NCBI RefSeq assembly: GCF_004120195.1
Contig: NZ_SCHN01000007.1
Span: forward strand, 372,001-436,000
DNA length: 64,000 nt
Origin: Enterovibrio baiacu
GTDB lineage: Bacteria; Pseudomonadota; Gammaproteobacteria; Enterobacterales; Vibrionaceae
Reading direction: 5' to 3'
The first letter of the stretch is position 1. Every line of letters starts with the position of its first letter. The notes below the pieces were generated by a model. That model was not told where the DNA came from. It did not search any database and saw nothing but the letters and a program-made list of their open reading frames with translations. The position numbers were made by a program, and so were the translations under genes. Positions 17,955 to 58,531 of the stretch are shown here, piece by piece.

Positions 17955-17963
17955 CATCACTCC

Positions 17964-18398
17964 TTACTGACCAAACTTGCCCGCTGGAACAAAATCGTTC
18001 TCTACGATAGGCTCGCCTTGGATCTGAGGAACATGGCATTGCAGACAGAAATAACGGCGTGGGGCGACATCTGTCAGCACTTTGTTATCACGGTCTAGGT
18101 AGTGTGTTGGGCTCACGCGTGGTGCGCCGGTTTTACGGTAAACATCCACATCATGACACTGCAAACACGCATTGTTTGATTGGTTAACCTGATAGCCATC
18201 GACCGCATGCGGTACCATTGGCGGTTGGTTAACATAGTTCAATGACAAGCGTTCTTGGTTTTTCGGTACTGCTTTTATTTTTGGCACTTCGTTGTTTTCA
18301 CCAATCTCTTGGTCACCACGTAGCGACGTCACTTGCGCCATTGCCACTGAGCTAATTAATGCCGCCAGCAATAGAGAAACCGTGTATTTCATTTTCAT
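17964..18398 (-). CDS. napB: NapB, diheme electron-transfer subunit of periplasmic nitrate reductase
   Basis: 144 residues. Cleavable signal peptide (MKYTVSLLLAALISSVAMA). Two haem-binding sites, CLQCH-DVD and CLQCH-VPQ, and the family blocks 'PPMVPHAVDGYQV' and 'SPTHYLDRD'. Receives electrons from NapC and gives them to NapA in the periplasm. Lies 78 nt after napA, with AAAGGAG before the start. Confidence 0.95.
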   Translation of the reverse strand: MKMKYTVSLLLAALISSVAMAQVTSLRGDQEIGENNEVPKIKAVPKNQERLSLNYVNQPPMVPHAVDGYQVNQSNNACLQCHDVDVYRKTGAPRVSPTHYLDRDNKVLTDVAPRRYFCLQCHVPQIQGEPIVENDFVPAGKFGQ

Positions 18399-18476
18399 TC
18401 TCGGCTCCTTTCGGAATCTTTAATAATCATTGTCGGTTTGGGTGGCGACCAGCGTTCACCCAAACCGTATTCATGC

Positions 18477-20963
18477 TTAGGCTTTCACTACTTTAACGGC
18501 ACATTTCTTGTAATCCGTCTCTTTAGAAAGCGGGTCAGTAGCATCAAGCGTAAGCTTGTTCACCAGTTGCCCTGCATCAAAAAACGGCATAAAGATCAGC
18601 CCTTGTGGTACGCGATTACGTCCACGCGTCTCAACGTGTGACGTGACTTCACCTCGACGAGAAATAAGCTTGATCGCATCGCCACGGCGTAAGCCTCGCT
18701 TCTTCGCATCCAATGGGTGCATGTACACCACCGCATCTGGGAAGGCTTTATAAAGCTCAGGAACACGTCGCGTCATGGTGCCTGTGTGCCAATGCTCAAG
18801 CACTCGACCCGTTGATAGCCACAGATCGTACTCTTCGTCCGGGGCTTCCGCCGCTGGCTCATAAGGCAAGGCAAAGATCACGGCTTTTTTGTCAGGCTTA
18901 CCGTAGAACGCAAACGCTTCACCGGCTTTCACATAAGGGTCATGCCCTTCTGCGTAACGCCACAGGGTTTCTTTGCCGTCAACCACAGGCCAGCGTAAAC
19001 CACGTGCTTGGTGGTACTCTTCGAACGGTGCGAGGTCGTGCGCTTTGCCGCGACCAAACGCTGCATACTCTTCGAACAAGCCTTTCTGAATGTAGAAACC
19101 CGCCGCGCGTGCATCATCATTCAAGCGATCTTCTGGCACTTGATCGAGGCCGTATTGGTTAACTTGTCCGTTGGCATACAAGATGTCGAACAAGGTCTTG
19201 TCAGCAAATTCAGGCTTCTTCGCCACCAAATCCGCAGGCCACACATCTTTGACTTTGATGCGTTTAGACAGCTCAACGATTTGCCAAAGATCTGACTTCG
19301 CTTCACCTGGCGCTTTCACTTGCTGATACCAGAACTGGGTACGACGCTCAGCATTACCGTAAGCCCCTTCTTTCTCTACCCACATCGCTGTCGGAAGAAT
19401 CAGGTCCGAGGCCATCGCTGTGACCGTTGGGTAAGGGTCAGACGTGATAATGAAGTTACGCGGATCGCGGTAACCCGGTAAGCGCTCTTCATTGATGTTA
19501 GGGCCGGCTTGCATGTTGTTGTTACACATTACCCAGTACACATTCAGCTTGCCGTCTTTCAGCATGCGATCTTGCAATACAGCGTGGTAACCGGGTTTCG
19601 GCGGGATAGTGCCTTCTGGCAATTTCCATTTCGCTTCCGCAAACGCGCGGTGTTTTGGATTGTTCACCACCATGTCTGCTGGCAGACGGTGTGCAAATGT
19701 ACCCACTTCACGTGCTGTACCGCACGCTGAAGGTTGGCCTGTTAACGAGAATGGGCCGCAACCTGGCTTCGAAATTTTGCCCGTCAATAGGTGGATGTTG
19801 TAACAAAGGTTATTCGCCCACACGCCGCGAGTATGCTGGTTGAAACCCATTGTCCAGTAAGAGACTACATTCACTTTCGGGTCAGCATAAAGCTCGGCCA
19901 ACGCAACGAGTTGATCTTCTGGTACACCAGAGAGTTTTGATACAGATTCAACATCGTAGTCCGCGACAAACTTCGCAAACGCGTCGAAATCGATAGGGTC
20001 TGACGCACCGCTACCTGCGTTTTTCGCATTCTGCTCAAGTGGGTTCGTTGGGCGCAAACCATAACCAATGTCGGTTGCACCTTTACGGAAATTAACGTGT
20101 TTTGCGATGAAGTCTTTGTCGACTTTGTCGTTTTGAATGATGTAGTTGGCAATGTAGTTCAGAATCGCGAGATCAGTTTGTGGCGTGAAGATCATGCCGT
20201 TATCTGCTAACTCGAAACTGCGGTGTTCGTACGTAGACAGTACCGCCACTTTTACGTGATCTGCCGATAATCGGCGGTCAGCCAAACGCGACCACAAAAT
20301 GGGGTGCATCTCTGCCATGTTAGATCCCCAAAGCACAAACGCATCCGCTTGCTCAAGGTCGTCATAACAGCCCATGGGTTCATCCATACCAAAGGTACGC
20401 ATGAAACCTACAACCGCAGAGGCCATACAGTGACGTGCATTCGGGTCAATATTATTGGTTAGGAAGCCTGCCTTCATTAGTTTCGATGCAGCATATCCCT
20501 CCCAAACGGTCCATTGGCCTGAGCCAAACATGCCAACGGTCGTTGGGCCGTTTTCTTGGATCGCTTTAGTGAATTTCTCCGCCATCAAATCCAGCGCTTC
20601 GTCCCAACTGATTGCTTCGAATTCGCCTTCTTTGTCGTAAACACCGTTTTTCTTACGTAGCATTGGCTGTGTAAGACGGTCTTTTCCGTACATGATTTTC
20701 GGTAGGAAATAGCCTTTAACACAGTTCAGACCGCGGTTAACCGGTGCTTCTGGGTCGCCTTGTGTTGCTACAACACGCCCATTTTGTGTCCCTACAAGAA
20801 CGCCACAGCCAGTACCACAAAATCGGCACGGTGCTTTATCCCATTTTACTTCTTCGTCGGTTCCCGCTGCCTGCGCAACAGACACGGGAAGTGTAATACC
20901 CGCCGCACCGGCCGCCGCAGCAGCTGCATTTGCTTTGAGAAACTTTCTACGTGTCAGGGTCAT
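18477..20963 (-). CDS. napA: NapA, catalytic subunit of periplasmic nitrate reductase
   Basis: 828 residues, the family's normal length. Twin-arginine signal T-R-R-K-F-L-K with an Ala-rich h-region. The [4Fe-4S] ligands are Cys46, 49, 53 and 81 (C-R-F-C-G-T-G-C, then CVKG). The molybdenum ligand is likely Cys179 in NARHCMAS. Binds bis-MGD and reduces nitrate to nitrite in the periplasm. Its ATG overlaps the napD stop (ATGA). Folded in the cytoplasm with help from NapD and NapF before Tat export. Confidence 0.97.
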
Positions 20964-24521: not shown

Positions 24522-27212
24522 TTAGATAAGACTATCGTCGTTCAACGTAACGGTTTCTGCATCTGTCCATACCGTGATGGTGCGATCTTGCGTGTCGTGC
24601 GTGAACACGTAAGCATTCAACTCACCTACTTGGGTGTTGTTCAGACCCATGATGCTGATCATTTCTGCTGACAATGGAGCATTTACCGCACCATCTGCAT
24701 CGAAGCTCCAAGGTGTACCAGACATGTTAAGGGTGTCATCGCCTTCACCAAGGTAAGCAACAAAACCATCCCAGTCATCTGGTGTACCGAAATCTTCACC
24801 AAATGGTGAATCAGACTGCGCCCAGATTTCGTTCGGGTTAATCGTCACTTCTTGGTCACCTTCGTCACCAATAACGGCTTCGATTTGTGCCATCACGTTA
24901 CCTGTGATCGTCGGATCTGACTGGTAGCTTTCACCGGTAAAATCGACAATCGCATCGCCTTCAACCAACATCTTGTCAAAGCCGTTATCAGCGTTATACA
25001 TAGATTTGTTGATCACACGACCCGCTTGGTTTGTAACCGTGGTACCCACGAAATCGTCTTGACCGAAGATGAACACATCGTCACCCGCGCTACCGCGATA
25101 CTCATCAACACCCGTGCCACCGTCAATTTCAACGTCGCTACCAGGACCACCGTCGAGGTAATCATTGCCAGCGCCGCCAAGAAGGACATCTTGACCTGTA
25201 CCACCGTAGATTTCATCGTTACCGTCGCCACCTTCGATGACATCGTCACCTTCTTGGCCATAGATAACATCGTCGCCTACGCCACCCATGATGTGGTCAG
25301 CATCGTCACCACCGTAAATGGTGTCATTACCTTCTTCACCGTAAATGGTGTCTGCATCTGTCGTGCGGGTAGATTGGCTCGCTTCAACGTTAAATACAAC
25401 GTCGTTAAAGTCTTTGTCGCCCAGGCACCATAGATCTTCCCAGCAAGAAGCGTCGCCAGAGTTGATTTCGTGGTCACGGTTGTCGCCGTTTTTACCGGCT
25501 TCAGACACGTACACCATTGACGATGCAGAACCTTGCGTGATGGTTGGGCTAGAGCCGCTAAAGCTCAATGTGGCTTCGCCCGCATCGAAGTGCTTGCGGT
25601 CGCCATCAGGAATAATGAACAAGCTCAGTGTTACTGCACCTTCAACATCAATGTTGGCAGTAATGTCGGCAGCACCTTTTACATTATCTTCCAAGATGTA
25701 AGCTTTCAGTACGTTGCCATCTTCATCGAGTGCATACCAACCCACACTGTTGTTGTAAGTCGCGCTTGAAGAGAAGTTAGACAGATCAAGTGTCACTTCG
25801 CCACCACCACTGATGTCCCACGTGCCATCTGCTTTACGCACTAACTCTGTGGTTTGTCTGCCGTACTGGCCGCCGTAAATAAGGTCATCACCTTCACCGC
25901 CACGAATTTCATCATCGCCCCACTGGCCATAAATGGTGTCGTTACCTTTACCGCCGTCGATGTAATCTTCATCGTTTGCGATTTCAGTGAGATCACCGTT
26001 GTTGGCTTGCAGCGCCTCATAGTCAAGCGAAGAGACATTGGTGAGCGAATTAGGCACAAGGCTCAAATCGGTATCGGCTGTGATTTCTGGGCCATCGATT
26101 TGAATCAGGATTTTTCCGTTTTCGCCTATATTGTGGTAGTGATGGCCGTTACCGTCTGCATCAATGTCAATGACCGCAAAGGTATAGATGTTGCCATCAG
26201 AGTCACAGTAAGACAGTTTGTAGTCGACGTTGGCATCGTAGGTTTGACCGTCAAGGTTGACTGACTGTGTTTTATCGTCAGAGTACTCATTGCAACGGTC
26301 ATCGCCATTTAACTGGTCATCATCATCGTTAAACGTGATTTGTTCGTGCGTGCCATTGAAGCTCAACTTCGGTGGCAAACACGATTGGTGGAAATTACCA
26401 CCGTTGGTGATAGAGAAGCTTTCGTTCAATACGAATGCTTTGATTGACCCGTCATTGCCAAAGTTCGGGCTTGCAGTGTTGCCGTAGATAACGTCATCAC
26501 CGTCGCCACCATACAGCTCATCTTGGCCATTATTGCCTTCGATGAAATCATCGCCGCCCTGGCCGTATACAACGTCATCACCATTGCCTGCAGAAATCAC
26601 ATCATCATCGCCAATCCCATGATCAATCTCCGGTGAAGCAGGTGTAACAATGTCATCGTAATCAAGGCTGCTTACGTTTTGGTAAGAGTTAGGAACAAGG
26701 CTCAAATCCGTGTCTGACGTAATTTCTGGGCCGTCAGTCTGAACAAGAATTTTGCCATTTTCGCCCGCGTTGTTGTAGTGATGGCCATTTCCATCAGAAT
26801 CAACGTCTACGACGACAAAGGTATACACGTTGCCTGCGGCGTCGCAGTACTGAAGTTGGAAATCAACGTTCACATCGCACTCTTGGCCGTTAAGCGTTAC
26901 CGTTTGGCTCTTGTCATCAGAATACTCGTTGCAACGATCGTCACCATTCAATTGGTCATCGTCATCATTGAAACTAACGTTGGTCGTGCTGCCCGAAAAG
27001 TTCAGTGTTGGTGGAAAGTTCCAAGTGTTGAAGTTACCGCAGTCTGCAGAGAAGTCAGCTCCCATCACAAAGACTGCAGCCGTTTTATTGTCAGACGAAG
27101 AACCTGACGTATCACCGTAGATAACATCGTTGCCATCAAAACCGTTGATCGTGTCTTTTCCCGTCGTACCATTCAACGTATCCGCAGAATTGGTTCCATT
27201 GATATCCGCCAT
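24522..27212 (-). CDS. RTX-type (hemolysin-like calcium-binding repeat) secreted protein
   Basis: 896 residues, no N-terminal signal. Glycine/aspartate nonapeptide repeats (GGxGxDxxx) occur at about 5-35, 200-245, 416-448 and a long block at 620-710, pointing to type I secretion and calcium-dependent folding outside the cell. Between them are two near-identical modules (about residues 44-188 and 257-398) sharing 'FNDDDDQLNGDDRCNEYSDD'. Residues ~590-610 ('WEDLWCLGDKDFNDVVFNVE') look like a DUF4114 domain end. Nine cysteines (58, 94, 112, 123, 278, 307, 336, 590, 596) are unusual for an RTX substrate. The C-terminal 180 residues lack repeats and should hold the secretion signal. No exporter genes adjoin. 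Function unknown; adhesin or matrix protein is a guess. Confidence 0.87.
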   Translation of the reverse strand: MADINGTNSADTLNGTTGKDTINGFDGNDVIYGDTSGSSSDNKTAAVFVMGADFSADCGNFNTWNFPPTLNFSGSTTNVSFNDDDDQLNGDDRCNEYSDDKSQTVTLNGQECDVNVDFQLQYCDAAGNVYTFVVVDVDSDGNGHHYNNAGENGKILVQTDGPEITSDTDLSLVPNSYQNVSSLDYDDIVTPASPEIDHGIGDDDVISAGNGDDVVYGQGGDDFIEGNNGQDELYGGDGDDVIYGNTASPNFGNDGSIKAFVLNESFSITNGGNFHQSCLPPKLSFNGTHEQITFNDDDDQLNGDDRCNEYSDDKTQSVNLDGQTYDANVDYKLSYCDSDGNIYTFAVIDIDADGNGHHYHNIGENGKILIQIDGPEITADTDLSLVPNSLTNVSSLDYEALQANNGDLTEIANDEDYIDGGKGNDTIYGQWGDDEIRGGEGDDLIYGGQYGRQTTELVRKADGTWDISGGGEVTLDLSNFSSSATYNNSVGWYALDEDGNVLKAYILEDNVKGAADITANIDVEGAVTLSLFIIPDGDRKHFDAGEATLSFSGSSPTITQGSASSMVYVSEAGKNGDNRDHEINSGDASCWEDLWCLGDKDFNDVVFNVEASQSTRTTDADTIYGEEGNDTIYGGDDADHIMGGVGDDVIYGQEGDDVIEGGDGNDEIYGGTGQDVLLGGAGNDYLDGGPGSDVEIDGGTGVDEYRGSAGDDVFIFGQDDFVGTTVTNQAGRVINKSMYNADNGFDKMLVEGDAIVDFTGESYQSDPTITGNVMAQIEAVIGDEGDQEVTINPNEIWAQSDSPFGEDFGTPDDWDGFVAYLGEGDDTLNMSGTPWSFDADGAVNAPLSAEMISIMGLNNTQVGELNAYVFTHDTQDRTITVWTDAETVTLNDDSLI
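26019..27083 (-). repeat. Internal duplication inside the RTX protein
   Basis: Two modules of about 145 residues: 26649-27083 (residues 44-188) and 26019-26444 (residues 257-398). Shared blocks include 'DDRCNEYSDDK', 'DGNGHHY', 'GENGKILVQ', 'DGPEIT' and 'TDLSLVPNS'. They are separated by an RTX repeat block. Confidence 0.85.
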
Positions 27213-27656
27213 TTCATTTCCCTCTTTTATGCTAACAAAGCAAGAGGCAGCCCGGCCATCTCCCGATGAAGCAACGTCAATTCATCAACGAAGCCATCAA
27301 AGAGACCCGACACTTTCCGTCCCCAACTCGCGATGGGTTTGGCTTTTACTCCTAGATATTGTCCTATTGGTGAGTGTTGCTTTGGGCACTATTGGAACGC
27401 TATACAACCCGGAAAAACGTTTTGCGCCGCTGTTCATATGACACACAGGTTCGTAGATTGAGTTACTCCCAGCAAGCATATCTGGGGCTTTTAATGTGAA
27501 TTTAAGGACAAGTGCGGGAAAGTTTTTAGTCAAGAATGATGAAAGGATTAATGAGCCATTAGACGTAATTATACGGGATGCAATACTGTTGAATGGAATA
27601 AGTATGAAAGTCTAGAAAGTTAGTGACTAGTAAAATATCCTTCTTAATTAAAACCA
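27213..27656. other. Intergenic region upstream of the RTX gene
   Basis: 444 nt that should hold the RTX gene promoter (reading left). It also contains a plus-strand open frame 27229-27441 of 70 codons ending in a clear hydrophobic segment (RWVWLLLLDIVLLVSVALG) but without a ribosome site, so I do not call it a gene. The part from 27540 to 27656 is AT-rich with nothing recognisable. Confidence 0.4.
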
Positions 27657-47328: not shown

Positions 47329-48132
47329 TCAGTCGGCGTTTTCCCAACTGTCTGCTTCGATTTTTGCCAACGCGTGTGAAGCACGCTGGAGTGCTGGAAG
47401 GAAATGTAATGCTTGTTCTGCCTTCAAGCGCATGATCGGTGCTTGAATGGCAACAGCAAGGTTTGAGCGCCCGCGCGGAGACGGCACCAACACCGCCACA
47501 CAGAGCAGCCCCGGCAGAAACTCTTCGTTATCGATGGCATAGCCACACAAGCGCACATTTTCTAGCTCGGTTTCAAGCGCCTCAAGGTCCGTGAGTGTTT
47601 TCTCCGTAAAGGCGCTCAGCTCTACGTTATCCAGAATTCGGCGACGCTGTGACGGCGTCATGCTTGCGAGAAACAGTTTTCCCGTCGCTGAGCAGTGAAC
47701 AGGCACACGAGAACCCGCATGCAAGTGGAAACGCAGCGGCGCTTCCGTTTCTACGCGATCCACGTAAACAATCTCACCACCAGACAAAGACGTGAGGTTA
47801 CAACTCTCCCCGACTTCTTCTCGCAGTTGATTGAGCACTTGGTGTCTTGCACTGTGCGTGGTGGAATTCAGTAACACATTTTCGGCTAAACGGCGTAAAC
47901 GTGTGCCCGTGCTGTAATGGCGTTCATCGCCATCACGCTGCACAATGGCGGCACTTTCTAACTGTTGCAGCATACGGTGAAGTGTCGGTTTTGGAATGCC
48001 CGTTTCTTCGGCTAACCCTTGCAAAGAGAAAAACTCATCCTTCCCAGCGATCAATTCCAACAAAGCAAACAAACGCAATGTTGGCGTATCTCCATCTACC
48101 TTCGCCAAATCAGGCTGTTCTATGTTCTTCAT
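47329..48132 (-). CDS. IclR-family transcriptional regulator, likely of the taurine locus
   Basis: 267 residues from ATG 48132 (GAGGAAA upstream); the longer frame to 48240 is not needed. N-terminal winged helix about 15-75 ('LQGLAEETGIPKPTLHRMLQQLE'). Effector domain about 90-260 with 'GESCNLTSLSGGEIVYVDRVE', 'VPVHCSATGKLFLA' and 'GYAIDNEEFLPGLLCVAV', characteristic of IclR. It lies downstream of cobT on the same strand, with 216 nt between. Candidate 15-bp palindromes upstream of itself and of xsc suggest it controls the locus. Many taurine loci use TauR (MocR type) instead. Confidence 0.93.
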   Translation of the reverse strand: MKNIEQPDLAKVDGDTPTLRLFALLELIAGKDEFFSLQGLAEETGIPKPTLHRMLQQLESAAIVQRDGDERHYSTGTRLRRLAENVLLNSTTHSARHQVLNQLREEVGESCNLTSLSGGEIVYVDRVETEAPLRFHLHAGSRVPVHCSATGKLFLASMTPSQRRRILDNVELSAFTEKTLTDLEALETELENVRLCGYAIDNEEFLPGLLCVAVLVPSPRGRSNLAVAIQAPIMRLKAEQALHFLPALQRASHALAKIEADSWENAD

Positions 48133-48256
48133 TCTTATGATTTCCTCTGCGGTATACCTCTGTATATCAAAATCAAAGTAAATAACAACTTCCGCTGTTA
48201 AAAACTGAAACAGAGTTGTTAAAAGCCGCCCTTGTTGCAACCATGCTCATAATAAT

Positions 48257-48348: not shown

Positions 48349-50088
48349 TTACCGCATTGAAGCTCGCTTAATTGATGAGGCCATTAGCGCCACAATGTCG
48401 ACAAACACCCGATGATGCAGAGGCTGTGCAATGTCTAAGGCAAGGCTATTGCGGTAATAACGGCTTAAATCCAACCCGATACCAAGCCCCATGATGATAT
48501 CTCCACACTTTTCTCGCTGCTCAACCACGCTTCTTAGATGATTATCGAGATAAAACGCATCGTTCATGAGGTTCGTTGCGGTATCCATGGGGCAACCGTC
48601 TGATAGCACGAGCAGCACGCGACGAGACACATCAACCCTTTGCATTCGTTGACATGCCCATTCAACAGCCTCGCCATCAATGCCTTCGCGGAAAAGATCC
48701 GCTTTCATCAATGCAGCAATGTTCTTTCGCCCCTGACGCCAATGCATGTCGGCATCCTTAAACACCAAGTGGCACACATCATTCAACCGACCCGGCAATG
48801 CGGGTCTACCCCTCGCCATCCATTGTTGGTGAGATTTGCCACCATTCCATGCATTCGTGGTGAAACCAAGCACCTCACTAGGAATACCGGCTAAACCAAG
48901 GGATCGCACCAAGCCATCCACCAGCAACGTAATGTGTTCGATGTGTTGCCGCATGGAGCCAGAACAATCAATCAGCAAGGTAACCATGCTGTCAGGCTTG
49001 GTGACGTATCGCTCTTTCATGAACAAGCGTGTTTCCATCGGCGACGTGACAATCTGCGCCAATCGTCGACCATCGATATAGCCCTCTTCCTCCCCAAACT
49101 GCCACCCATCTCGCTGAGGCTGACTGAGATACCGAGCCAGTTTTCGCGCAATGTCGCGACAATTAATACCCAAGGTTTGAAATTGCTTATCGAGCTGGAT
49201 ACGAAATGCATCAAGTTGTGCCACACGCACTAAGCCCGACGCATCGACTTCCGTATCGAATTCCCGCGTAAAGACCTGATACTCGCCATTATGCTGTTCA
49301 AATGCCGTGCTTTTTTTCCCTGATGCAATCGCTGTGTCTTCTGATAACGCAGCCTCGTCTTCGAGCAACAACGCAAACGTATTGATGACACGCTCAGCAT
49401 CAGATTCTTCGTCATGCTCGTCTTGGCTCTGATGGATCATGTCAGCGATGGTTTGCGCCAACTTGAGCGCGTGAACGGCGTAGTCTGACTGCGATGATGT
49501 GCATCGACGAAGACCCAGCAGACTTTCACCAATCATGGGTGCAATGCCAGCACGCGTCGCTTCAATCAGGTCTTCATAATCTTCATCAATGGGCGTGGCA
49601 AACAGACGTGTTCGCACCATTTGAATGACAGTGAATAGCAAAATACCCAGCCGAGACTCCACTAGCTCTGCGTTTTTTGAAAGCGCACACCACGCATCAA
49701 ATCGATATCGAATATTTCGCTGCACGCCAATGTGAGAGGTGGCACTGGACAAGGCCTCGGTTCGATACTGTTCAAGCAAATCAAACAGCATGCGAGCAAG
49801 AGAATCCTCGGGGCTAAGTGACTGATGCAATACCGGATCACTAAGCATCAATCGTGATGCGATAGCATCAATGCGTCCTCGTTCAGCCTTGAAGTCAGAA
49901 TCCAGATCTTGTGCTTGGAGATGAGAAGCCGAGACAGGTATGAAGGTCGTATCGCGATACACTTGACCCGCTTTGAGGTGCAACGCACCGTCGCCCACTT
50001 CCGCACGCAAAGCCGCAGATGACAACATATGCATGCGCTGTTGAAGCACCGAAAACCGTGGGAATGCTGAAGCGTTAGTCTCTGCCAT
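48349..50088 (-). CDS. cobT: CobT-like VWA-domain subunit (cobaltochelatase-type, orphan)
   Basis: 579 residues, somewhat shorter than aerobic-pathway CobT. N-terminal helical domain; acidic linker about 219-255 (rich in Glu/Asp but shorter than usual); C-terminal VWA domain from about 365 with MIDAS motif D-C-S-G-S (374-378). Starts 2 nt after cobS, so the two are coupled. In cobalamin makers CobS and CobT form an AAA+/VWA chaperone that drives cobalt insertion by CobN. No cobN or other cob gene is present here, so the client is probably different. The taurine enzymes encoded next door are the obvious candidates, by inference only. Confidence 0.88.
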   Translation of the reverse strand: MAETNASAFPRFSVLQQRMHMLSSAALRAEVGDGALHLKAGQVYRDTTFIPVSASHLQAQDLDSDFKAERGRIDAIASRLMLSDPVLHQSLSPEDSLARMLFDLLEQYRTEALSSATSHIGVQRNIRYRFDAWCALSKNAELVESRLGILLFTVIQMVRTRLFATPIDEDYEDLIEATRAGIAPMIGESLLGLRRCTSSQSDYAVHALKLAQTIADMIHQSQDEHDEESDAERVINTFALLLEDEAALSEDTAIASGKKSTAFEQHNGEYQVFTREFDTEVDASGLVRVAQLDAFRIQLDKQFQTLGINCRDIARKLARYLSQPQRDGWQFGEEEGYIDGRRLAQIVTSPMETRLFMKERYVTKPDSMVTLLIDCSGSMRQHIEHITLLVDGLVRSLGLAGIPSEVLGFTTNAWNGGKSHQQWMARGRPALPGRLNDVCHLVFKDADMHWRQGRKNIAALMKADLFREGIDGEAVEWACQRMQRVDVSRRVLLVLSDGCPMDTATNLMNDAFYLDNHLRSVVEQREKCGDIIMGLGIGLDLSRYYRNSLALDIAQPLHHRVFVDIVALMASSIKRASMR

Positions 50089-50090
50089 CT

Positions 50091-51086
50091 CTACGTTCCA
50101 GTATCAGAAGGTACGGATTCAAATAACGCGCTTTGGGTGATAATTTCTTCATCAAAACAGCGTTGGTAAAGCTCATTAAACACAGGCCATTCCGATTCAT
50201 CGCATTTGTTCAGAAACGTGAGACGAAAAGCGAGGCGAACATCTGGGAAAAGCACGTGATTTTCAGCCCACATGATCACCGTTCTGGGTGACATTAACGT
50301 GGAGGTATCACCGCTAGCAAAAGCACGACGCGTGAGATTCGCAAGGGCAACCATTTGAGCCACCAGTCGCCTCCCTTGCTCCGTGTTCTTTTCTGGCACG
50401 CGCGATAATACGATGGCCGCTTCTCGTTCAGGCGCGAGATAATTCAAGGTCACCACAAGGTTCCAGCGGTCTACTTGCGCGTGGTTTAAAGCGTGCGTCC
50501 CATGATACAACCCTTGCAGATTGCCTAACCCAACGGTGTTCGCCGTCGCGAACAAGCGAAACGCCGCATGTGGTGTCAGCACGCGGTTTTTATCACTCAA
50601 GGTGAGCTTGCCCTCTTTCTCCAACAAACGTTGAATGACAAACATCACATCAGGTCGACCCGCATCATATTCATCTAAAACAAGGGCTATCGGACGCGTC
50701 ACCGACCACGGCAACAAACCGTCTTGAAACTCGGTCACTTGTTTGCCGTCGCGGAGTACCAAAGTATCTTTCCCCACCAGATCGAGCCGACTGATATGAC
50801 CATCCAGGTTTATCCGCAAACACGGCCAGTTTAATCGTGCTGCCACTTGCTCAATGTGGGTTGATTTACCCGTACCATGCATGCCTTGCACCAGCGTTCG
50901 TCGGTTGTGTGAAAAACCCGCCAAAATCGCCAATGTCACTTCAGGATCGAAGACATATTTCGGATCAATCTCCGGAACCAGCTCACTGGCCGTCGAATAA
51001 GCCGGCACGCGCAGATGACTGTCGATGCCAAACGTTTCTCGAACATTTACCTCTATGTCTGCCATCCCGCTCTTTTCCGCTTCCAT
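50091..51086 (-). CDS. cobS: CobS-like AAA+ ATPase (MoxR type, orphan)
   Basis: 331 residues from ATG 51086, which has the best ribosome site (GAGGGAGAAG); ATGs at 51101 and 51065 are alternatives, the last giving the CobS-typical MADIEVNVRETFGID. Walker A GMHGTGKST (68-76), Walker B ALVLDEYDAGRP (134-145), sensor 'FATANTVG' (179-186). Very close in motif to CobS of aerobic cobalamin synthesis. Divergent from xsc across 266 nt. Expected to form a hexameric ring working with CobT. Confidence 0.9.
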   Translation of the reverse strand: MEAEKSGMADIEVNVRETFGIDSHLRVPAYSTASELVPEIDPKYVFDPEVTLAILAGFSHNRRTLVQGMHGTGKSTHIEQVAARLNWPCLRINLDGHISRLDLVGKDTLVLRDGKQVTEFQDGLLPWSVTRPIALVLDEYDAGRPDVMFVIQRLLEKEGKLTLSDKNRVLTPHAAFRLFATANTVGLGNLQGLYHGTHALNHAQVDRWNLVVTLNYLAPEREAAIVLSRVPEKNTEQGRRLVAQMVALANLTRRAFASGDTSTLMSPRTVIMWAENHVLFPDVRLAFRLTFLNKCDESEWPVFNELYQRCFDEEIITQSALFESVPSDTGT

Positions 51087-51297
51087 TCTCTTCTCCCTCA
51101 TTGCGACTTTTCACCGAAATCACACTCAGCAAAACCATTGATAGTGCGTGCTTTTCTTCCTCAACAGAGGGAAAGAGTTACTCTCTCTGAACACCACTGT
51201 CAGCATTTTCTCAAAAATCCGACGAATCAAATAAAGCATTCCACTTTGTTAATTTCATGTTGACGACAGGTTTTCTTAAGACTAGTTTTTATCAATA

Positions 51298-51334
51298 TTC
51301 CGTTATACGAAACATTTAATTCCATTTAACGAAA
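51298..51334 (+). promoter_or_regulatory. Two tandem IclR-type operators upstream of xsc
   Basis: TTCCG-TTATA-CGAAA (51298-51312) and TTCCA-TTTAA-CGAAA (51320-51334): 15-bp pseudo-palindromes of form TTYCG-N5-CGRAA, 22 nt apart, the second ending 18 nt before the xsc ATG. The same word TTCCGTTAT occurs upstream of iclR. Confidence 0.55.
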
Positions 51335-51352
51335 TATTTCAAGGAGAGAACT

Positions 51353-53164
51353 ATGAGTGAGAAAGCGATGCGTACCGTCGTTGAAGGACCAACCAAGATG
51401 ACCCCGTCTGAGGCGTTCGTAGAAACCTTAGTCGCGAACAACGTCACGACCATGTTTGGCATCATGGGTTCTGCATTTATGGATGCCATGGACATCTTTG
51501 CGCCTGCGGGTATTCGCATGATCCCGGTTGTGCATGAGCAAGGTGCTGCGCACATGGCCGATGGCTACTCGCGTGTTTCAGGTAATCATGGTGTTGTCAT
51601 TGGACAGAACGGTCCAGGCATCAGTAACTGTGTGACCGCGATTGCGGCGGCATATTGGGCGCACAGCCCTGTTGTTATCGTGACCCCCGAAACAGGCACC
51701 ACCACAATGGGACTCGGTGGCTTCCAAGAATGTAACCAACTCCCGATGTTCCAAGAGTTCACCAAATACCAAGGGCACGTGACGCACCCTTCTCGTATGG
51801 CGGAATACACAGGCCGATGCTTTGACCGCGCCATGAGTGAAATGGGTCCCACCCAATTGAACATCCCTCGCGATTACTTCTACGGCGAGGTGACCTGTGA
51901 AATTCCAAAGCCTGCGCGACTCGATCGCGGCCCAGGCGGTGAAAACAGCTTGAATGAAGCGGCAGACATTCTTGCCGAAGCCAAATTCCCCGTCATCATT
52001 TCCGGTGGTGGTGTTGTCATGGCTGACGGCCTTGAGGAATGTAAGGCGCTCGCAGAACGCCTTGGTGCGCCAGTCGTGAACAGCTACCTCCACAATGATT
52101 CATTCCCCGCCTCTCACCCACACTGGTGTGGCCCGCTCGGCTACCAAGGGTCAAAAGCGGCGATGAAACTTTTAGCACAAGCCGATGTGGTGATTGCACT
52201 TGGCTCTCGCTTGGGGCCGTTCGGCACCTTGCCGCAACATGGTCTCGATTACTGGCCGAAAACCGCCAAGATCATTCAAATCGATGCTGACCACAAAATG
52301 CTTGGCCTTGTGAAGAAGATTTCGGTCGGTATTTGTGGCGATGCCAAAGCGGCTGCCATTGCACTGACTGAGCGCCTAAACGGACGCACTCTCGCCTGTG
52401 ATGCCAATACCGAAGAACGTATCGCAGTGATGAAACAAGAACAGGATGCGTGGGAAAAAGAATTGGACGAGTGGACGCATGAAAAAGATGCCTTCAGCCT
52501 CGACATGATTGATCAAAACGCGAAAGAGAAGCCGTTCTCTGGCGGCGAATACCTTCACCCGCGCCAAGTACTGCGTGAGCTTGAAAAAGCCATGCCAGAA
52601 GACGTTATGGTCTCAACCGACATCGGTAACATCAACTCCATTGCCAATAGCTATCTGCGCTTTGAAAAACCACGCAGCTTCTTCGCAGCCATGAGCTTTG
52701 GTAACTGTGGCTACGCCTTCCCGACCATCATTGGCGCGAAAATGGCAGCGCCAGAGCGCCCAGCCGTCTCTTATGCGGGCGATGGTGCGTGGGGCATGAG
52801 CTTGATGGAAACCATGACCTGTGTACGTCACAACATTCCCGTGACTGCCGTTGTGTTCCATAACCGCCAATGGGGCGCGGAGAAGAAAAATCAGGTCGAT
52901 TTCTACAACCGCCGTTTTGTGGCTGGCGAGCTGGATAACCAAAGCTTTGCTGAAATTGCACGCGCAATGGGTGCAGAGGGCGTGACGGTTGATCGCTTAG
53001 AAGATGTCGGCCCAGCCCTTCAATCTGCTATCGACAAACAAATGAACGAAGGCAAAACAACGGTCATTGAAATCATGTGTACCCAAGAGCTGGGCGACCC
53101 GTTCCGCCGTGATGCACTGTCAACGCCGGTGCGTTTCCTCGATAAGTACAAAGATTACGTGTAA
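51353..53164 (+). CDS. xsc: Sulfoacetaldehyde acetyltransferase
   Basis: 603 residues, AAGGAG site. Thiamine-diphosphate enzyme family: N-terminal Pyr domain ('FGIMGSAFMDAMD', 'HEQGAAHMADGY'), central domain, and C-terminal PP domain with 'GDGAW' near residue 476 followed by 'FHNRQWGAEKKNQVDFYN'. 'SYLHNDSFPASHPHWCGPLG' is characteristic of Xsc as opposed to acetolactate synthase. Converts sulfoacetaldehyde plus phosphate to acetyl phosphate and sulfite in the cytoplasm. First gene of the catabolic arm. No pta follows, so a housekeeping Pta or AckA must use the acetyl phosphate. Confidence 0.96.
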   Translation: MSEKAMRTVVEGPTKMTPSEAFVETLVANNVTTMFGIMGSAFMDAMDIFAPAGIRMIPVVHEQGAAHMADGYSRVSGNHGVVIGQNGPGISNCVTAIAAAYWAHSPVVIVTPETGTTTMGLGGFQECNQLPMFQEFTKYQGHVTHPSRMAEYTGRCFDRAMSEMGPTQLNIPRDYFYGEVTCEIPKPARLDRGPGGENSLNEAADILAEAKFPVIISGGGVVMADGLEECKALAERLGAPVVNSYLHNDSFPASHPHWCGPLGYQGSKAAMKLLAQADVVIALGSRLGPFGTLPQHGLDYWPKTAKIIQIDADHKMLGLVKKISVGICGDAKAAAIALTERLNGRTLACDANTEERIAVMKQEQDAWEKELDEWTHEKDAFSLDMIDQNAKEKPFSGGEYLHPRQVLRELEKAMPEDVMVSTDIGNINSIANSYLRFEKPRSFFAAMSFGNCGYAFPTIIGAKMAAPERPAVSYAGDGAWGMSLMETMTCVRHNIPVTAVVFHNRQWGAEKKNQVDFYNRRFVAGELDNQSFAEIARAMGAEGVTVDRLEDVGPALQSAIDKQMNEGKTTVIEIMCTQELGDPFRRDALSTPVRFLDKYKDYV

Positions 53165-53277: not shown

Positions 53278-53685
53278 ATGACTAACGTCGCGACCCCACA
53301 CGCTCAACCCGCCACGACGCTTGAATTTCTCGACGCCTTTTCTGCTGCATGGAACAACCATGATGTCGATGCTCTCATGTCTTTCATGGCGCCGGACTGC
53401 GTCTTCCTTACCGCTGCAGGCAGTGGCCTTCAAGGCAATACCATTTCGGGTCAAGATGCCGTGCGTGAAGCCTTTGAACAAGTGTGGAAAACCTTCCCAG
53501 ATGTCGCATGGAAGGATGCAGAACACACAATAATGAACGGGAATAAGGCCATCACTGAATCGACGTTTTGCGCCACGAAACCCGATGGAAGCCGGATCGA
53601 AGCACGAATGGTGGATGTCTTCACGCTGCAAGACGGAAAGATCCTCGTCAAAAACGCATTTAGAAAAGATCGCCCAGCGTTGTAA
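53278..53685 (+). CDS. tauX: NTF2/SnoaL-like small protein, probable taurine dehydrogenase small subunit
   Basis: 135 residues, strong AAAAAGGAG site. NTF2-like cone fold: 'FLDAFSAAWNNHDVDALMSFMA' type helix (split), 'DVFTLQDGKI' at the C-terminal sheet. TauX of known taurine dehydrogenases is a small protein beside the flavoprotein TauY, and the position directly before the FAD gene fits. I rely on context more than sequence. It could instead be an unrelated SnoaL-like helper. Confidence 0.65.
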   Translation: MTNVATPHAQPATTLEFLDAFSAAWNNHDVDALMSFMAPDCVFLTAAGSGLQGNTISGQDAVREAFEQVWKTFPDVAWKDAEHTIMNGNKAITESTFCATKPDGSRIEARMVDVFTLQDGKILVKNAFRKDRPAL

Positions 53686-53755
53686 GCCATCGGAAGCTGG
53701 CGGCTACCGATAGAACACCAAACTCTTAATCTGAAGAATGAACAAGGAGCGAGTC

Positions 53756-55207
53756 ATGGATTCAGCCATCACCAAACAATCAGCTGTCGACACCGAGAAT
53801 GCCTTTCTCGCTACCCCAGCGTCCCGCGCCTATGACCCCGCATATGATCCCCTTGTTGACCAGACGCCGGGAAATGGCCGCGAATATGCCCCGACATATT
53901 GGATTGGTACAGCGGGCCCTGCTCCCGAAGATGATGGCCCAATCACGGGCGACATGGATGTCGATGTTGTGATTGTAGGTTCTGGATTTACTGGCTTGAC
54001 CGCCGCGATTTTTTTGGCTGAAAACTACGGCATTAAAGCCACTGTGCTCGAGGCAAACCGCACCAGTTGGGGTTGCAGTACCCGAAACGGCGGACAAGCT
54101 CAGTGCGCGTCAGGGCGATTAAAGCGCTCGCAATGGATCCAACGCTGGGGTGTCGAAACCGCCATTAAAATGCATGAAGAGTGCATGGATGGCATGGCAA
54201 CCTTTAAATCGCTGATCAAAGACATTGATTGCGATCCTCAGCCGGGCGGCCACTTCTATATCGCGCATCGCAGCAAAGTGATGCCCTCGCTAGAAAAAGA
54301 AGCCAAATTGCTTCGTGATACCTTCAACTATGACGCACAGATCATCGATGCCGACACCCTCAAAAATCAATTCGTCAATGACAGTGAGGCTGCAGGCGCA
54401 ATGCATGAACCAGAAGGCATTGGCGTTCACCCTGCGAAACTCGCGTTCGGCTACTTAAAGAAAGCGCGCGCGTTAGGCGTGAAAGTCCACCCTTCTAGCC
54501 CAGTAATCAGTTGGAAGACTCAGCAAGGTATTCATTACCTCAACACGCCCAACGGCGTGGTAAAAGCGCGATCGGTCGGCTTAGCCACAGGTGGCTACAC
54601 ATCACAGGGCTTGCACACGGAAGTAAAGAACCGCTTACTGCCTATCTTGTCCAATTCCATCGTGACAAGACCGCTGACACCGGCCGAAATTGACGCCTGT
54701 AACTTCAAAACCACCCAAGTGCTGACAGACACACGGGTGCTTCGACACTACTATCGATTGTTACCTGATAACCGCTTACAAATTGGCTCACGCAGTGCAA
54801 TCACCGGGGCTGACGCTCCTCAGAAGCAATACGAGAACAAACTCTATGCCGATATGGTGCGGAAGTTTCCCGCACTGAAAGGCATCACATTGGATTATTC
54901 CTGGTGGGGCTGGGTGGATGTCAGTCATGACATGATGCCAAGAATCGTTCAACCGAACGAAAATGAAAGCATCTACTACGCACTCGGTTACGGCGGCAAT
55001 GGCGTGATGTATTCCGCGCAAGCAGGCAAGCGTTTAGCCCAATGGATTGCAGGCGATAAATCCGAGTTGAACTTACCGATTTTCCAATCTCGACTGCCCT
55101 ATCCCAATGTTCAACAAATCATCGAATCCGAATACCTTGCTCCATTCCGTCGAATGGGTCAGCGGTTTTTATATCGTTGGTATCACTTGAAAGACGAAAT
55201 TATTTAA
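53756..55207 (+). CDS. tauY: FAD-dependent oxidoreductase, probable taurine dehydrogenase large subunit
   Basis: 483 residues from ATG 53756 (AAGGAG 6 nt upstream); an ATG at 53738 adds six residues. DadA/GlpD-like fold: dinucleotide motif 'VVIVGSGFTGLTAA' with GSGFTG at 75-80, 'GCSTRNGGQ' at 106-114, and the C-terminal 'YALGYGGNGVMYSAQAG'. TauXY oxidatively deaminates taurine to sulfoacetaldehyde, passing electrons to a cytochrome or quinone. The neighbours xsc and TRAP genes support this over glycine- or putrescine-oxidase-type relatives. Confidence 0.8.
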   Translation: MDSAITKQSAVDTENAFLATPASRAYDPAYDPLVDQTPGNGREYAPTYWIGTAGPAPEDDGPITGDMDVDVVIVGSGFTGLTAAIFLAENYGIKATVLEANRTSWGCSTRNGGQAQCASGRLKRSQWIQRWGVETAIKMHEECMDGMATFKSLIKDIDCDPQPGGHFYIAHRSKVMPSLEKEAKLLRDTFNYDAQIIDADTLKNQFVNDSEAAGAMHEPEGIGVHPAKLAFGYLKKARALGVKVHPSSPVISWKTQQGIHYLNTPNGVVKARSVGLATGGYTSQGLHTEVKNRLLPILSNSIVTRPLTPAEIDACNFKTTQVLTDTRVLRHYYRLLPDNRLQIGSRSAITGADAPQKQYENKLYADMVRKFPALKGITLDYSWWGWVDVSHDMMPRIVQPNENESIYYALGYGGNGVMYSAQAGKRLAQWIAGDKSELNLPIFQSRLPYPNVQQIIESEYLAPFRRMGQRFLYRWYHLKDEII

Positions 55208-55453
55208 GCCGTAAATCGACGAGAAAAGCACCCGGAATTCGCGACGTATTTTTAGTTATTCCTGATGTTAACCATCAGTTTTTGCGACATTTTTCCATCT
55301 CATTGCGCTAATAACAGTAAAGCCAAAAAGGCCAACTTCAGTGTGGCCAAAAGAGCTGAAACACCCCGAGAAAGTAAGATTCAGGCCGACACATTTCGGA
55401 CTGCAACGCGCTAGAAAATGAAACACATTTCATTCACTCAAGAGGTTGTAATC

Positions 55454-56452
55454 ATGAAACTTATTAGACGCAATGCACTCGCAATCATCTCGACCGTTTG
55501 CGTAGCACTTCTTTCTCCGCAACTCGCGGCGAAGACATTTAAAATGGCATTGGGTGACGCTGCAGGTGGCACCCAATGGGAGCTCGGCGAAACCTTCGCC
55601 AAAACACTCAATGAAAAAACCAACGGTCAGGTGACTGTCGATTTGTTCCCCAACGGGCAACTCGGCACCGAACAAGACACAGTGAACAACGCCGCTATTG
55701 GCTTATTGGATTTCTCTGTATTGGCGATCAACAACGTCACCCCGTTTTCGCCGACAGTCGGCTTACTCACCATGCCTTATGTCATCCAATCAGCAGCAGA
55801 GGCTAAGATGCTCACGCAAGGAGACATCGGCAAGGAGTTGGTGGACAACACCCTGCGTGATGCGGGTGTGCGCATTGTTGGTTGGGCGTATTCTGGTTTT
55901 CGCGTACTGACCAATTCCAAACGTCCCGTCAGAACCCCTGAAGACTTGAAAGGCATGGTCATTCGCGTCCCCCGCAATGAAATCATGATTGCCTCTTATC
56001 AAGCGCTGGGCGTTAACCCAACGCCGATGGCATGGTCTGAAACCTTCACTGGGCTTCAGCAAGGCGTGGTAGACGGCCAAGACAACCCATACATCACCAT
56101 CGCGGCAATGAAATTCAACGAGGTGCAAAAATACGTCACTAACATTCGCTACATCTTCTCCCTTGAACCTCTCATCATTAGCGAAGCCGTTTTCCAAGAG
56201 CAATCTCCCGAGATTCAAAACGCCATTTTGGAAGCAGGCCAAGTCGCCACAGAGCACAGCTATGAGTTCTTACTCGCCACCGAAGACCGCATCAAGAAAG
56301 ACCTTGCGGCCAAAGGCATGGAGATCACAGAGCCTGCAAACAATGAAAAAGAGTGGATAGACAGCATCACAACCGTCGTATGGCCGAAGTTCTACGAGAG
56401 CATTGGCGGTAAAGAAAAGCTGGATAACGCCTTAACCCTGCTAGGCAGATAA
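55454..56452 (+). CDS. tauK: TRAP transporter solute-binding protein, likely taurine (TauK)
   Basis: 332 residues from ATG 55454 (AAGAGG site); the frame begins at 55418. Signal peptide of about 27 residues ending LAAKTF. DctP family: 'NPTPMAWSETFTGLQQGVVDGQDNP' (split here), where the Arg of 'MVIRVPRNEI' binds the acid group of the ligand. The 246-nt gap before it holds a GGCCA/TGGCC hairpin (55330-55348), and a second hairpin follows the gene; these may separate its expression from tauXY and tauLM. Confidence 0.87.
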   Translation: MKLIRRNALAIISTVCVALLSPQLAAKTFKMALGDAAGGTQWELGETFAKTLNEKTNGQVTVDLFPNGQLGTEQDTVNNAAIGLLDFSVLAINNVTPFSPTVGLLTMPYVIQSAAEAKMLTQGDIGKELVDNTLRDAGVRIVGWAYSGFRVLTNSKRPVRTPEDLKGMVIRVPRNEIMIASYQALGVNPTPMAWSETFTGLQQGVVDGQDNPYITIAAMKFNEVQKYVTNIRYIFSLEPLIISEAVFQEQSPEIQNAILEAGQVATEHSYEFLLATEDRIKKDLAAKGMEITEPANNEKEWIDSITTVVWPKFYESIGGKEKLDNALTLLGR

Positions 56453-56466
56453 CCACGTTGGCGAGC

Positions 56467-56491
56467 ATCAGCAGCCAAGTACGCTGCTGAT
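56467..56491 (+). other. Intercistronic hairpin between tauK and tauL
   Basis: ATCAGCAGC (56467-56475), loop CAAGTAC, GCTGCTGAT (56483-56491): perfect 9-bp stem without T-run. Such hairpins often protect the abundant binding-protein mRNA from 3' decay. Confidence 0.6.
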
Positions 56492-56599
56492 ACTGTCACG
56501 GCTGTTCGAGCATGTTATCGACAACTGCTCATGTCTACCTAAACCCGCGCCAACCTCTTGGGGCGGGTCACTATTCATTACTTGAAGTTCGAGAAAGCC

Positions 56600-57166
56600 A
56601 TGTCTGTGATCGTTAAGGTGCGACGCCACCTAAACAGAATCGAGGAATACACCTGTTGTTTGCTGTTGGCCGTGTTTGTCACGCTTCTGTTCTCTCAAAT
56701 CCTGTTACGTCAGTTCTTCCAATATTCGATCCCCTGGGGGGATGAAGTCGCGACATATCTGTTCGTTTGGTTTACCTATTTAGGCGCAGTGGTTGCCGCA
56801 AAAATGTCAGCCCACAATCGCGTGAGTTTTCACTTCAAATTCTTTCCGCCCATCGTGAAAACCGTGTGCGAAACCTTCGCTGACCTCCTATGGATAGCGT
56901 TTAACCTCTACTTTGTGTATCTGAGCTATGACTTCGTTTTCAACAAAATGAACCTGTTCTGGAAGTCACAAACGACGGGGATTCCGATGAAGTATTTCTA
57001 CCTCATTTTGCCGATCGCCTTCTTCCTTATGTCCATTCGCATTCTTTGGAACATGATTGACCGCATCAAAGGCGTTGAACATGACGATCCTGAAGCAGAA
57101 GAAATCAGGAAGCTTCAGCGTGAAAGAAATGAACGCGACGCCAAAGCCGGTGAATCCCACTCATAG
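56600..57166 (+). CDS. tauL: TRAP transporter small permease (TauL, DctQ type)
   Basis: 188 residues from ATG 56600; the longer frame starts at TTG 56558. Four membrane segments. 'QIPWGDEVATYLFVWFTYLGA'-like DctQ signature ('SIPWGDEVATYLFVWF') at about residues 42-57. The C-terminal tail is charged. Partner of the DctM subunit 24 nt downstream. Confidence 0.9.
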   Translation: MSVIVKVRRHLNRIEEYTCCLLLAVFVTLLFSQILLRQFFQYSIPWGDEVATYLFVWFTYLGAVVAAKMSAHNRVSFHFKFFPPIVKTVCETFADLLWIAFNLYFVYLSYDFVFNKMNLFWKSQTTGIPMKYFYLILPIAFFLMSIRILWNMIDRIKGVEHDDPEAEEIRKLQRERNERDAKAGESHS

Positions 57167-57190
57167 CCATAAAACAAGGAGGAAATTGCC

Positions 57191-58531
57191 ATGGAAGCCT
57201 ATTTAACGCTCATTTTATTTGGCGGTTTCTTAGCACTATTGGTACTCGGTGCTCCCATTACCGTGTCATTGGCTGGCGCAGCGATGGCAGCCTATTTGAT
57301 CTTGGATAAAAACCCCATCGCCCTTGTTCAAATTGCCTTTACCTCGGTGGGTAACTTCCCGCTCATGGCTCTGCCATCGTTTGTGCTTGCTGGTGCGCTC
57401 ATGGAAGCGTCTGGTATTTCCAAGCGGCTCGTGGACATTGCCGAAAACATGGCTGGCCCAGTCACTGGTGGCCTTGGGGCTGCAACGGTCTTTGCGTGTC
57501 TGTTCTTCGGCGCTATTTCAGGCTCTGGCCCCGCAACCACCGCCGCCGTAGGCATGTTAATGATCCCTGCCATGGTGAAACGCGAATACGAGCCGAGCTA
57601 TGCCTCTGCCGTCACCGCCGCCAGTGGCGGCTTGGGCATTATTATTCCGCCCTCGATTCCTATCGTCATTTTCGGCATCGCCGCCATGGGTTTAATGGCA
57701 CCGCCAGAGGCCATCGCCTTGCATGGGCAGTTTGATACTGTGTCTATTCCCAAACTCTTTATTGCTGGCGTGATCCCTGGCCTGATCATGGCGTCCACCT
57801 TGCTCATTACCAATTACGTCATCTCAAAAAAACGCGGCTACAAAGGATTGCTCGAAGCATGGTCGACGGATGACATTAACAACTCGCTTCGACGCGGCAT
57901 TTGGTCGATTCTCGCGCCCTTTCTTATCCTGGGCGGCATCTACAGCGGCATATTTACGCCGACAGAATCCGCCGTGGTGGCCATTTTCTATTCGTTGTTT
58001 GTTGGGTTCTGCCTGCACAAGGAATTGACGTTCAAAAACGTGCTGAAATCCCTCACCACCACCACATGGATAACAGGCCGTGTATTACTGATTTTGTTTG
58101 CTGCCACGGTGTTTGGTCGCCTCTTGATCGAACAGCGTATTCCTGTTCATGTGGCCGATGCGCTGCTCAGCGTGACGGACAATATGTATTTGGTGTGGGC
58201 GTTAACCATCATGCTGTTACTGTTTATTGGCATGTTCATGGAAACCCTTGCCGCGATCATGATCATTGTGCCAGTGCTGTTGCCCATCATGTATATGCTT
58301 GGCGCAGACCCAACCCATGTCGGTATCGTGATTGTATGTACGCTTTCAATTGGTTTTGCCACACCGCCCTTAGGGGAGAACATCTTTGTGGCCTCAGGGA
58401 TTGGCGGCTCAACCGTTGAACAAATCACCGCACGTATTCACCCCTTTGTGTTGGCGTCTGTGATTGGTGTGTTCATCATCGCGTTCTTTCCTTCATTGAC
58501 GCTTTGGTTGCCCGCCTTAGTGAGTGGTTAG
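57191..58531 (+). CDS. tauM: TRAP transporter large permease (TauM, DctM type)
   Basis: 446 residues, AAGGAGG site. About twelve membrane segments. DctM hallmarks: 'GAISGSGPATTAAVGMLMIP', 'GIIIPPSIPIVIFG' and 'ATPPLGENIFVASGI'. Sodium-driven uptake of the ligand bound by TauK. Last gene of the locus. Confidence 0.93.
   Translation: MEAYLTLILFGGFLALLVLGAPITVSLAGAAMAAYLILDKNPIALVQIAFTSVGNFPLMALPSFVLAGALMEASGISKRLVDIAENMAGPVTGGLGAATVFACLFFGAISGSGPATTAAVGMLMIPAMVKREYEPSYASAVTAASGGLGIIIPPSIPIVIFGIAAMGLMAPPEAIALHGQFDTVSIPKLFIAGVIPGLIMASTLLITNYVISKKRGYKGLLEAWSTDDINNSLRRGIWSILAPFLILGGIYSGIFTPTESAVVAIFYSLFVGFCLHKELTFKNVLKSLTTTTWITGRVLLILFAATVFGRLLIEQRIPVHVADALLSVTDNMYLVWALTIMLLLFIGMFMETLAAIMIIVPVLLPIMYMLGADPTHVGIVIVCTLSIGFATPPLGENIFVASGIGGSTVEQITARIHPFVLASVIGVFIIAFFPSLTLWLPALVSG

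Follow-up and report, generated by a model that had tools for sequence, protein, structure and literature searches.

Why should two genes of cobaltochelatase type stand back to back with a gene for the degradation of taurine? The question is raised by a locus of Enterovibrio baiacu that lies within a 64,000-nucleotide (nt) stretch of contig NZ_SCHN01000007.1 (positions 372,001 to 436,000; hereafter the window). A cobT-like gene encoding a 579-residue VWA protein (48349-50088, minus strand; Pfam CobT and CobT_C above cut-off) is separated by only 2 nt from a cobS-like gene encoding a 336-residue AAA+ ATPase (50091-51101, minus strand; Pfam CobS_N and AAA_5 above cut-off). The pair diverges from xsc (51353-53164, plus strand), the gene of sulfoacetaldehyde acetyltransferase and of the proposed client, whose product scores 1069.4 bits against TIGR03457 (cut-off 676.4) and is assigned by identity to type A of the two Xsc types described below. 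An earlier note on this DNA had described a tight CobS/CobT pair with intact motifs, back to back with xsc and followed by an IclR-family regulator gene, and the coordinates, motifs and Pfam and NCBIfam assignments bear this out. In one study, Xsc is described as dependent on thiamine diphosphate and as yielding sulfite; its substrate, sulfoacetaldehyde, which it desulfonates, is where the known aerobic pathways for taurine and isethionate meet (PMC6386719).

The best-supported statement, as judged from genome comparison, is that this CobST pair acts on type-A Xsc. With a probability of roughly 0.6, CobST of the kind seen here (xsc-type CobST) would be a dedicated AAA+/VWA remodelling pair, an activase or maturase, for that form of the enzyme.

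Motifs and phylogeny of CobS and CobT

The window CobS contains the sequence GMHGTGKS and a region LVLDEYDAG, which we take to be Walker A and Walker B, respectively. CobT contains DCSGS at residue 374 together with T and D stretches, which we take to form a metal ion-dependent adhesion site (MIDAS). The Walker motifs of CobS and the MIDAS of CobT are intact in the window and conserved across the alignments of their relatives, and they occur in adjacent genes, as in AAA+/VWA pairs like CbbQO and NorQD.

Homology to the CobS and CobT subunits of the cobaltochelatase CobNST extends over both proteins, and solved structures of these subunits provide the best structural matches: CobS 9ujv for the profile of CobS relatives (E 1e-173; 12 rows, one of which, L032, was later placed as canonical) and CobT 9uka for the profile of CobT relatives (E 4e-118). 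Nevertheless, the window proteins fall outside the CobNST equivalogs. CobS reaches 481.9 bits against TIGR01650, below the cut-off of 558.55, and CobT reaches 298.6 bits against TIGR01651, far below the cut-off of 759.05. A canonical control CobT (L099) scores 1046.7 with the latter model, compared with 313 for the xsc-linked CobT of Streptomyces (L073) and 300 for that of Caballeronia (L026).

A tree of 90 combined CobS and CobT rows separates the two groups. The 73 xsc-type rows (the window and 72 relatives) share one side of a branch of length 1.18 with 100% support in the Shimodaira-Hasegawa approximate likelihood ratio test (SH-aLRT), and the other side holds 14 canonical rows together with L032, L171 and L172, three loci that are excluded from the 85 xsc-type loci counted below. 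The tree comes from a quick search and has some long branches; 12 near-duplicate loci were dropped from it by hand, and it includes 66 of the 85 xsc-type loci, the other 19 being classed by CobT similarity alone. Truncated genes and proteins with stops were excluded, which left 101 Xsc, 107 CobT and 105 CobS proteins. Two loci of betaproteobacterial metagenome-assembled genomes (MAGs), L094 and L097, one of them named Polynucleobacter, encode a strongly diverged CobT (33% identity) that is still directly beside type-A xsc. A CobT pattern search of viral contigs gave no match.

Association of CobST with Xsc

The 85 xsc-type loci comprise the window, 66 loci from a CobT-alignment scan of a genome collection (of 560 confirmed places the best 80 were kept, 14 of them canonical), 11 loci from the order draw described below and seven plasmid loci. 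With Xsc counted as present at no less than 70% identity over at least 60 residues, tblastn places it inside 66 of the 85 xsc-type loci compared with none of the 14 canonical-CobT loci, whose genomes are also without Xsc (0/14). For the 19 xsc-type loci that lack Xsc, it is found elsewhere in two genomes, the contig of L054 ends in an xsc fragment, and a search of the 16 remaining genomes detected Xsc in 12 (counted without typing as A or B; one partial and below cut-off), so that Xsc is present in the locus or genome for 81 of the 85. The linkage is sometimes loose, with cobST and xsc some 20-30 kb apart in G544 and G595 and on separate contigs in G079. This order of genes is found again in gammaproteobacteria, betaproteobacteria and actinobacteria, which argues that it is more than chance.

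In a draw of 295 genomes from the window's order, 12 have a CobT match at E<=1e-10 and 12 an Xsc match above the TIGR03457 cut-off, and the two sets of 12 are identical. A draw of 397 genomes from the phylum contained 37 with Xsc. Among the matches listed for the CobT profile, nine genomes score at least 687 bits, followed by two at 416 and 389 and the rest at 347 or less, and this set of nine coincides exactly with the genomes of the window's class that have Xsc. The 28 genomes with Xsc from outside the class have CobT in the canonical range only and none of xsc type. With four genomes shared between the two draws, the class is represented by 17 different genomes that have Xsc. A further draw of 150 genomes from the order of Amycolatopsis yielded five with Xsc, one of which (G326) had first been found via its CobT, and in all five CobS and CobT adjoin xsc. 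The association with a single enzyme is constant, with three Rhodococcus plasmids (see below) as an exception; co-occurrence with type-A Xsc is near-perfect and adjacency frequent in two phyla, including many genomes without CobN or TauY. Of the suggestion in the earlier note that CobST matures a taurine-pathway protein, TauXY or Xsc, or a metal enzyme used with it, the tie to the sulfonate locus stands and Xsc is the likely client (12/12, 9/9 and 5/5 genomes), while TauXY as the client is not supported.

Two types of Xsc and the C-terminal tail

Xsc proteins of the CobST loci are closely related, with a median pairwise identity of 84% (type A). Outside the class, Xsc was typed from 20 of the 28 genomes that encode it, which we treat as Alphaproteobacteria, and is only 45-48% identical to type A (type B), although it is annotated as the same enzyme and exceeds the TIGR03457 cut-off. 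These 20 loci have no xsc-type CobST, and their Xsc lacks the tail LDKYKDYV or its like. A plasmid collection contains Xsc of at least 80% identity in 10 records and of less than 60% in 159, and xsc-type CobT is encoded on seven of the 10 records with type-A Xsc. The partner of CobST is one form of Xsc, type A, and not the taurine pathway as a whole. Every genome with Xsc outside the class has canonical-range CobT, so canonical CobST could conceivably aid type-B Xsc.

The C-terminal tail distinguishes the two types. A terminus similar to RFLDKYKDYV, the last 10 residues of the window Xsc (codons at 53132-53161, plus strand), is present in 79 of 79 complete type-A proteins and in none of 22 type-B proteins. 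In a predicted model of the window Xsc (25 sequences; mean predicted local distance difference test score, pLDDT, of 77), residues 580-603 have pLDDT values below 50, which suggests that the tail is possibly mobile. It may serve as an active-site lid or as a handle for the motor. A search of solved structures with Xsc returned no Xsc among the 60 listed of 66 matches.

Proposed mechanism

By analogy to CbbQO, which acts on Rubisco, CobS would build an ATPase ring and CobT would dock on the client through its MIDAS. ATP hydrolysis would then remodel Xsc such that its active site becomes functional, or functional again, whether through assembly of the enzyme, loading of its cofactor or reactivation. 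From these patterns we infer that CobST binds Xsc physically, that the tail of Xsc has a role and that the enzyme is remodelled. CbbQO is likewise an AAA+/VWA pair encoded beside the gene of its client, with an intact MIDAS. The Rubiscos that CbbQO serves have a special C-terminal motif. According to the CbbQO study, other Rubiscos lack this motif, activation depends on it, and the VWA protein cannot do without its MIDAS or without an acidic residue on the client (PMC4660213). The parallel with the Xsc tail is a lead, not proof. The systems differ in that CbbQ belongs to another AAA+ subfamily and is a weak match to the CobS profile (E ~1e-9), the proposed Xsc motor being made of proteins descended from the CobST family, and in that the client is Rubisco in one case and in the other would be a thiamine-diphosphate enzyme.

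As for the inner step, a repair of the thiamine-diphosphate site is favoured, as a guess, since the sulfite that Xsc frees next to its thiamine diphosphate is a compound that destroys thiamine. CobST would in that case be a repair motor that opens an inactivated type-A Xsc, so that a cofactor that is damaged or at a dead end can be released and replaced by fresh thiamine diphosphate; this version is possible but doubtful. Metabisulfite depletes growth media of thiamine, according to another study (PMC11206890), which together with the sulfite yielded by Xsc makes cofactor repair plausible. A gene of thiazole synthesis, thiG, occurs by Pfam in four of the 85 xsc-type loci (L035, L044, L078 and L089, from four genera) and in none of the 14 canonical or 20 type-B loci, accompanied by thiS in L035 and L044 and by a ThiO-like gene, just below the ThiO cut-off, in L044 and L089. 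The Poisson probability of this placement is ~3e-4, assuming one thiG per 5 Mb genome at random, for a question posed only after the Rhodococcus locus had been seen. Sulfite cleavage of thiamine leaves the thiazole intact. Thus, thiG fits a plain demand for cofactor at least as well as damage. On the Rhodococcus plasmid pDK3 (L174, 3151-4144 and 15001-17920), type-A xsc and pta are accompanied by thiS-thiG and a TauE exporter gene, with no CobT match on the record.

Several observations weigh against a dedicated action of CobST on type-A Xsc. The evidence is all genomic, and shared regulation can explain linkage. The loci behind the 66 of 85 were mostly picked by CobT score, and the matches of the order draw are confined to four of 100 genera, so that they represent fewer independent events than genomes. 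Four of the 85 CobST loci (L041, L077, L080 and L096), all from MAGs, lie in genomes without detected Xsc. Conversely, three Rhodococcus plasmid records encode a type-A Xsc (82.8% identity) with no CobT on the record, in a search that covered the plasmid records to E 1e-20; the two of these plasmids that were read keep the Xsc tail and share the same genes around xsc. A common tail is in part expected among type-A proteins that are ~84% alike. Finally, the mirror-tree comparison is not decisive: distances between CobT proteins track those between Xsc proteins only moderately (Spearman 0.35, compared with 0.78 for Xsc-Pta and 0.86 for CobT-CobS).

Alternative explanations

CobST could place a metal into Xsc or a partner enzyme, or keep it there, in the way that NorQD handles iron. 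The two systems share a common AAA+/VWA remodelling logic, and NorQD inserts iron into nitric oxide reductase (PMC13036017); the window pair would have another client, for which a metal role is hypothetical. The type-A consensus has cysteine at several positions where the type-B consensus has other residues, as might suit a metal site. However, Xsc is described as thiamine-diphosphate dependent in the study cited above (PMC6386719), and the loci have no constant metal chaperone. A CobW-type GTPase, the candidate considered for that role, is found in only eight of the 85 xsc-type loci and was rejected as a constant member. Metal insertion is therefore considered unlikely. A small recurring set of genes, a CobW-type GTPase and an amidohydrolase, lies next to cobT in Caballeronia (L026, 11633-14250).

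Alternatively, CobST may belong to another step of sulfonate use, namely sulfite disposal, transport or control of the locus. The neighbouring genes offer candidates for each: tripartite ATP-independent periplasmic (TRAP) transporter genes in 21 of the 85 loci by tblastn and, among 84 fetched loci, TauE-like exporters in 18 and IclR regulators in 53, as counted from clusters of open reading frames that miss some genes. None of these is as constant as Xsc, and exporter, transporter and Pta genes are also seen beside type-B Xsc (L176 and L177). Moreover, none of the 28 genomes that have Xsc outside the class carries xsc-type CobT, and 20 of these genomes were shown to have type B. We regard this explanation as quite unlikely. 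Pta itself is present in 36 of the 85 xsc-type loci. With respect to control, the IclR-family gene of the window (47329-48240, minus strand; Pfam IclR_C and HTH_IclR) is on the same strand as cobST, and two 21-nt operator-like repeats, 22 nt from start to start, are located upstream of xsc at 51297-51339. Of 81 type-A xsc genes, 34 have similar sites (up to three mismatches) upstream, compared with 2.5 expected in single-base shuffles. The pattern was derived from the window's own repeats and the xsc upstream sequences are related, so the count only suggests that the repeats are a candidate IclR operator.

The third possibility, that CobST matures the taurine dehydrogenase TauXY, appears distinctly improbable. 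Downstream of xsc, the window encodes a SnoaL/NTF2 small subunit (53278-53685, plus strand; Pfam SnoaL_2), which we take to be TauX-like from its position beside tauY, and an oxidoreductase dependent on flavin adenine dinucleotide (FAD) (53738-55207, plus strand; Pfam DAO), presumably TauY-like. TauX and TauY are each detected by tblastn in 35 of the 85 xsc-type loci and in none of the 14 canonical-CobT loci, and TauY is present in 11 of the 12 order-draw genomes and, at E<=1e-60 and in some cases as fragments, in 30 of 44 xsc-type genomes. TauY is absent from the other 14 genomes, which include isolates of Streptomyces, Amycolatopsis, Paenarthrobacter and Pseudomonas as well as the 100% complete G079. 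In addition, TauXY is found beside type-B Xsc without xsc-type CobST, both in L151 (genome G515, with canonical-range CobT only) and on a Roseateles plasmid (L176), within the 17.7 kb that were read. The absence of TauY from 14 of 44 genomes and the occurrence of TauXY beside type B indicate that CobST follows Xsc rather than TauXY, and TauXY was rejected as an obligate partner.

A role in cobalamin synthesis was also examined. No cobalamin riboswitch was detected within the window, and a Pfam scan of 27 window proteins (the window has further open reading frames) revealed no cobalamin-synthesis family besides CobS and CobT, in agreement with the earlier note, which had reported no CobN or other cobalamin gene there. 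Nor was CobN (PF02514) found genome-wide: the window's genome (G000), given as 100% complete, has a single CobS and no PF02514 match, where five of 14 control genomes have a match. PF02514 is matched in 17 of 38 genomes of xsc-type loci (canonical controls, 7/8) and in four of 17 further ones, that is, in 21 of 55 overall and not in 34, the window's genome included, if no species is in both sets. Seventeen of the 21 PF02514 neighbourhoods were fetched, and none contained a CobS or CobT homologue. The 10 scanned genes that flank CobN-family matches encode five ChlI-type ATPases, two NifH/BchL-like proteins and three uninformative products; the NifH/BchL-like flanks suggest that those two matches are magnesium-chelatase subunits. 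That CobST here continues to act for a cobaltochelatase that has a distant CobN, its linkage to xsc being incidental, is very unlikely despite the 21 PF02514-positive genomes, and cobalamin synthesis was rejected as its role, given that CobN is often missing and has no CobS or CobT homologue near it in any of the 17 fetched neighbourhoods, that a ChlI-type ATPase flanks it in five of 10 scanned cases, that the pair forms a separate clade and that it co-occurs with Xsc in 12 of 12 and nine of nine genomes. Outside the window's class, 27 of the 28 Xsc-positive genomes have a CobN-family match. The exception, G691, combines Xsc and canonical-range CobT with no such match, possibly because CobST serves Xsc there or because of an assembly gap.

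Other features of the window

The tauX- and tauY-like genes are followed by TRAP transporter genes DctP, DctQ and DctM (55418-58531, plus strand; Pfam). Farther away, a c-di-GMP-I riboswitch (27243-27353, minus strand; Rfam, 45.1 bits) is directly upstream of a gene for a large RTX-repeat protein (24522-27212, minus strand), possibly an adhesin controlled by cyclic di-GMP. Genes for a NapC/NirT-type cytochrome and a molybdopterin oxidoreductase (17355-20963, minus strand) probably form a periplasmic nitrate reductase cluster.

Significance

A search of the open full-text literature for cobST or AAA proteins together with taurine or sulfoacetaldehyde showed no paper on such a link among the matches listed; in one match, "AAA" is a probe sequence (PMC10356861). 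Older taurine gene-cluster papers may contain an earlier remark on these genes. To our knowledge, no activase has been known for the thiamine-diphosphate enzyme class, and xsc-type CobST, as a repair motor, would be the first. If the proposed action on type-A Xsc is true, "cobalt chelatase" names for such genes, as in the Caballeronia record, would be wrong, and predictions of vitamin B12 synthesis in which cobS or cobT is counted might be led astray. A thiamine-diphosphate enzyme would also be a client of a new kind for AAA+/VWA machines, and in the repair version their recruitment to enzyme repair would have occurred a second time, after Rubisco.

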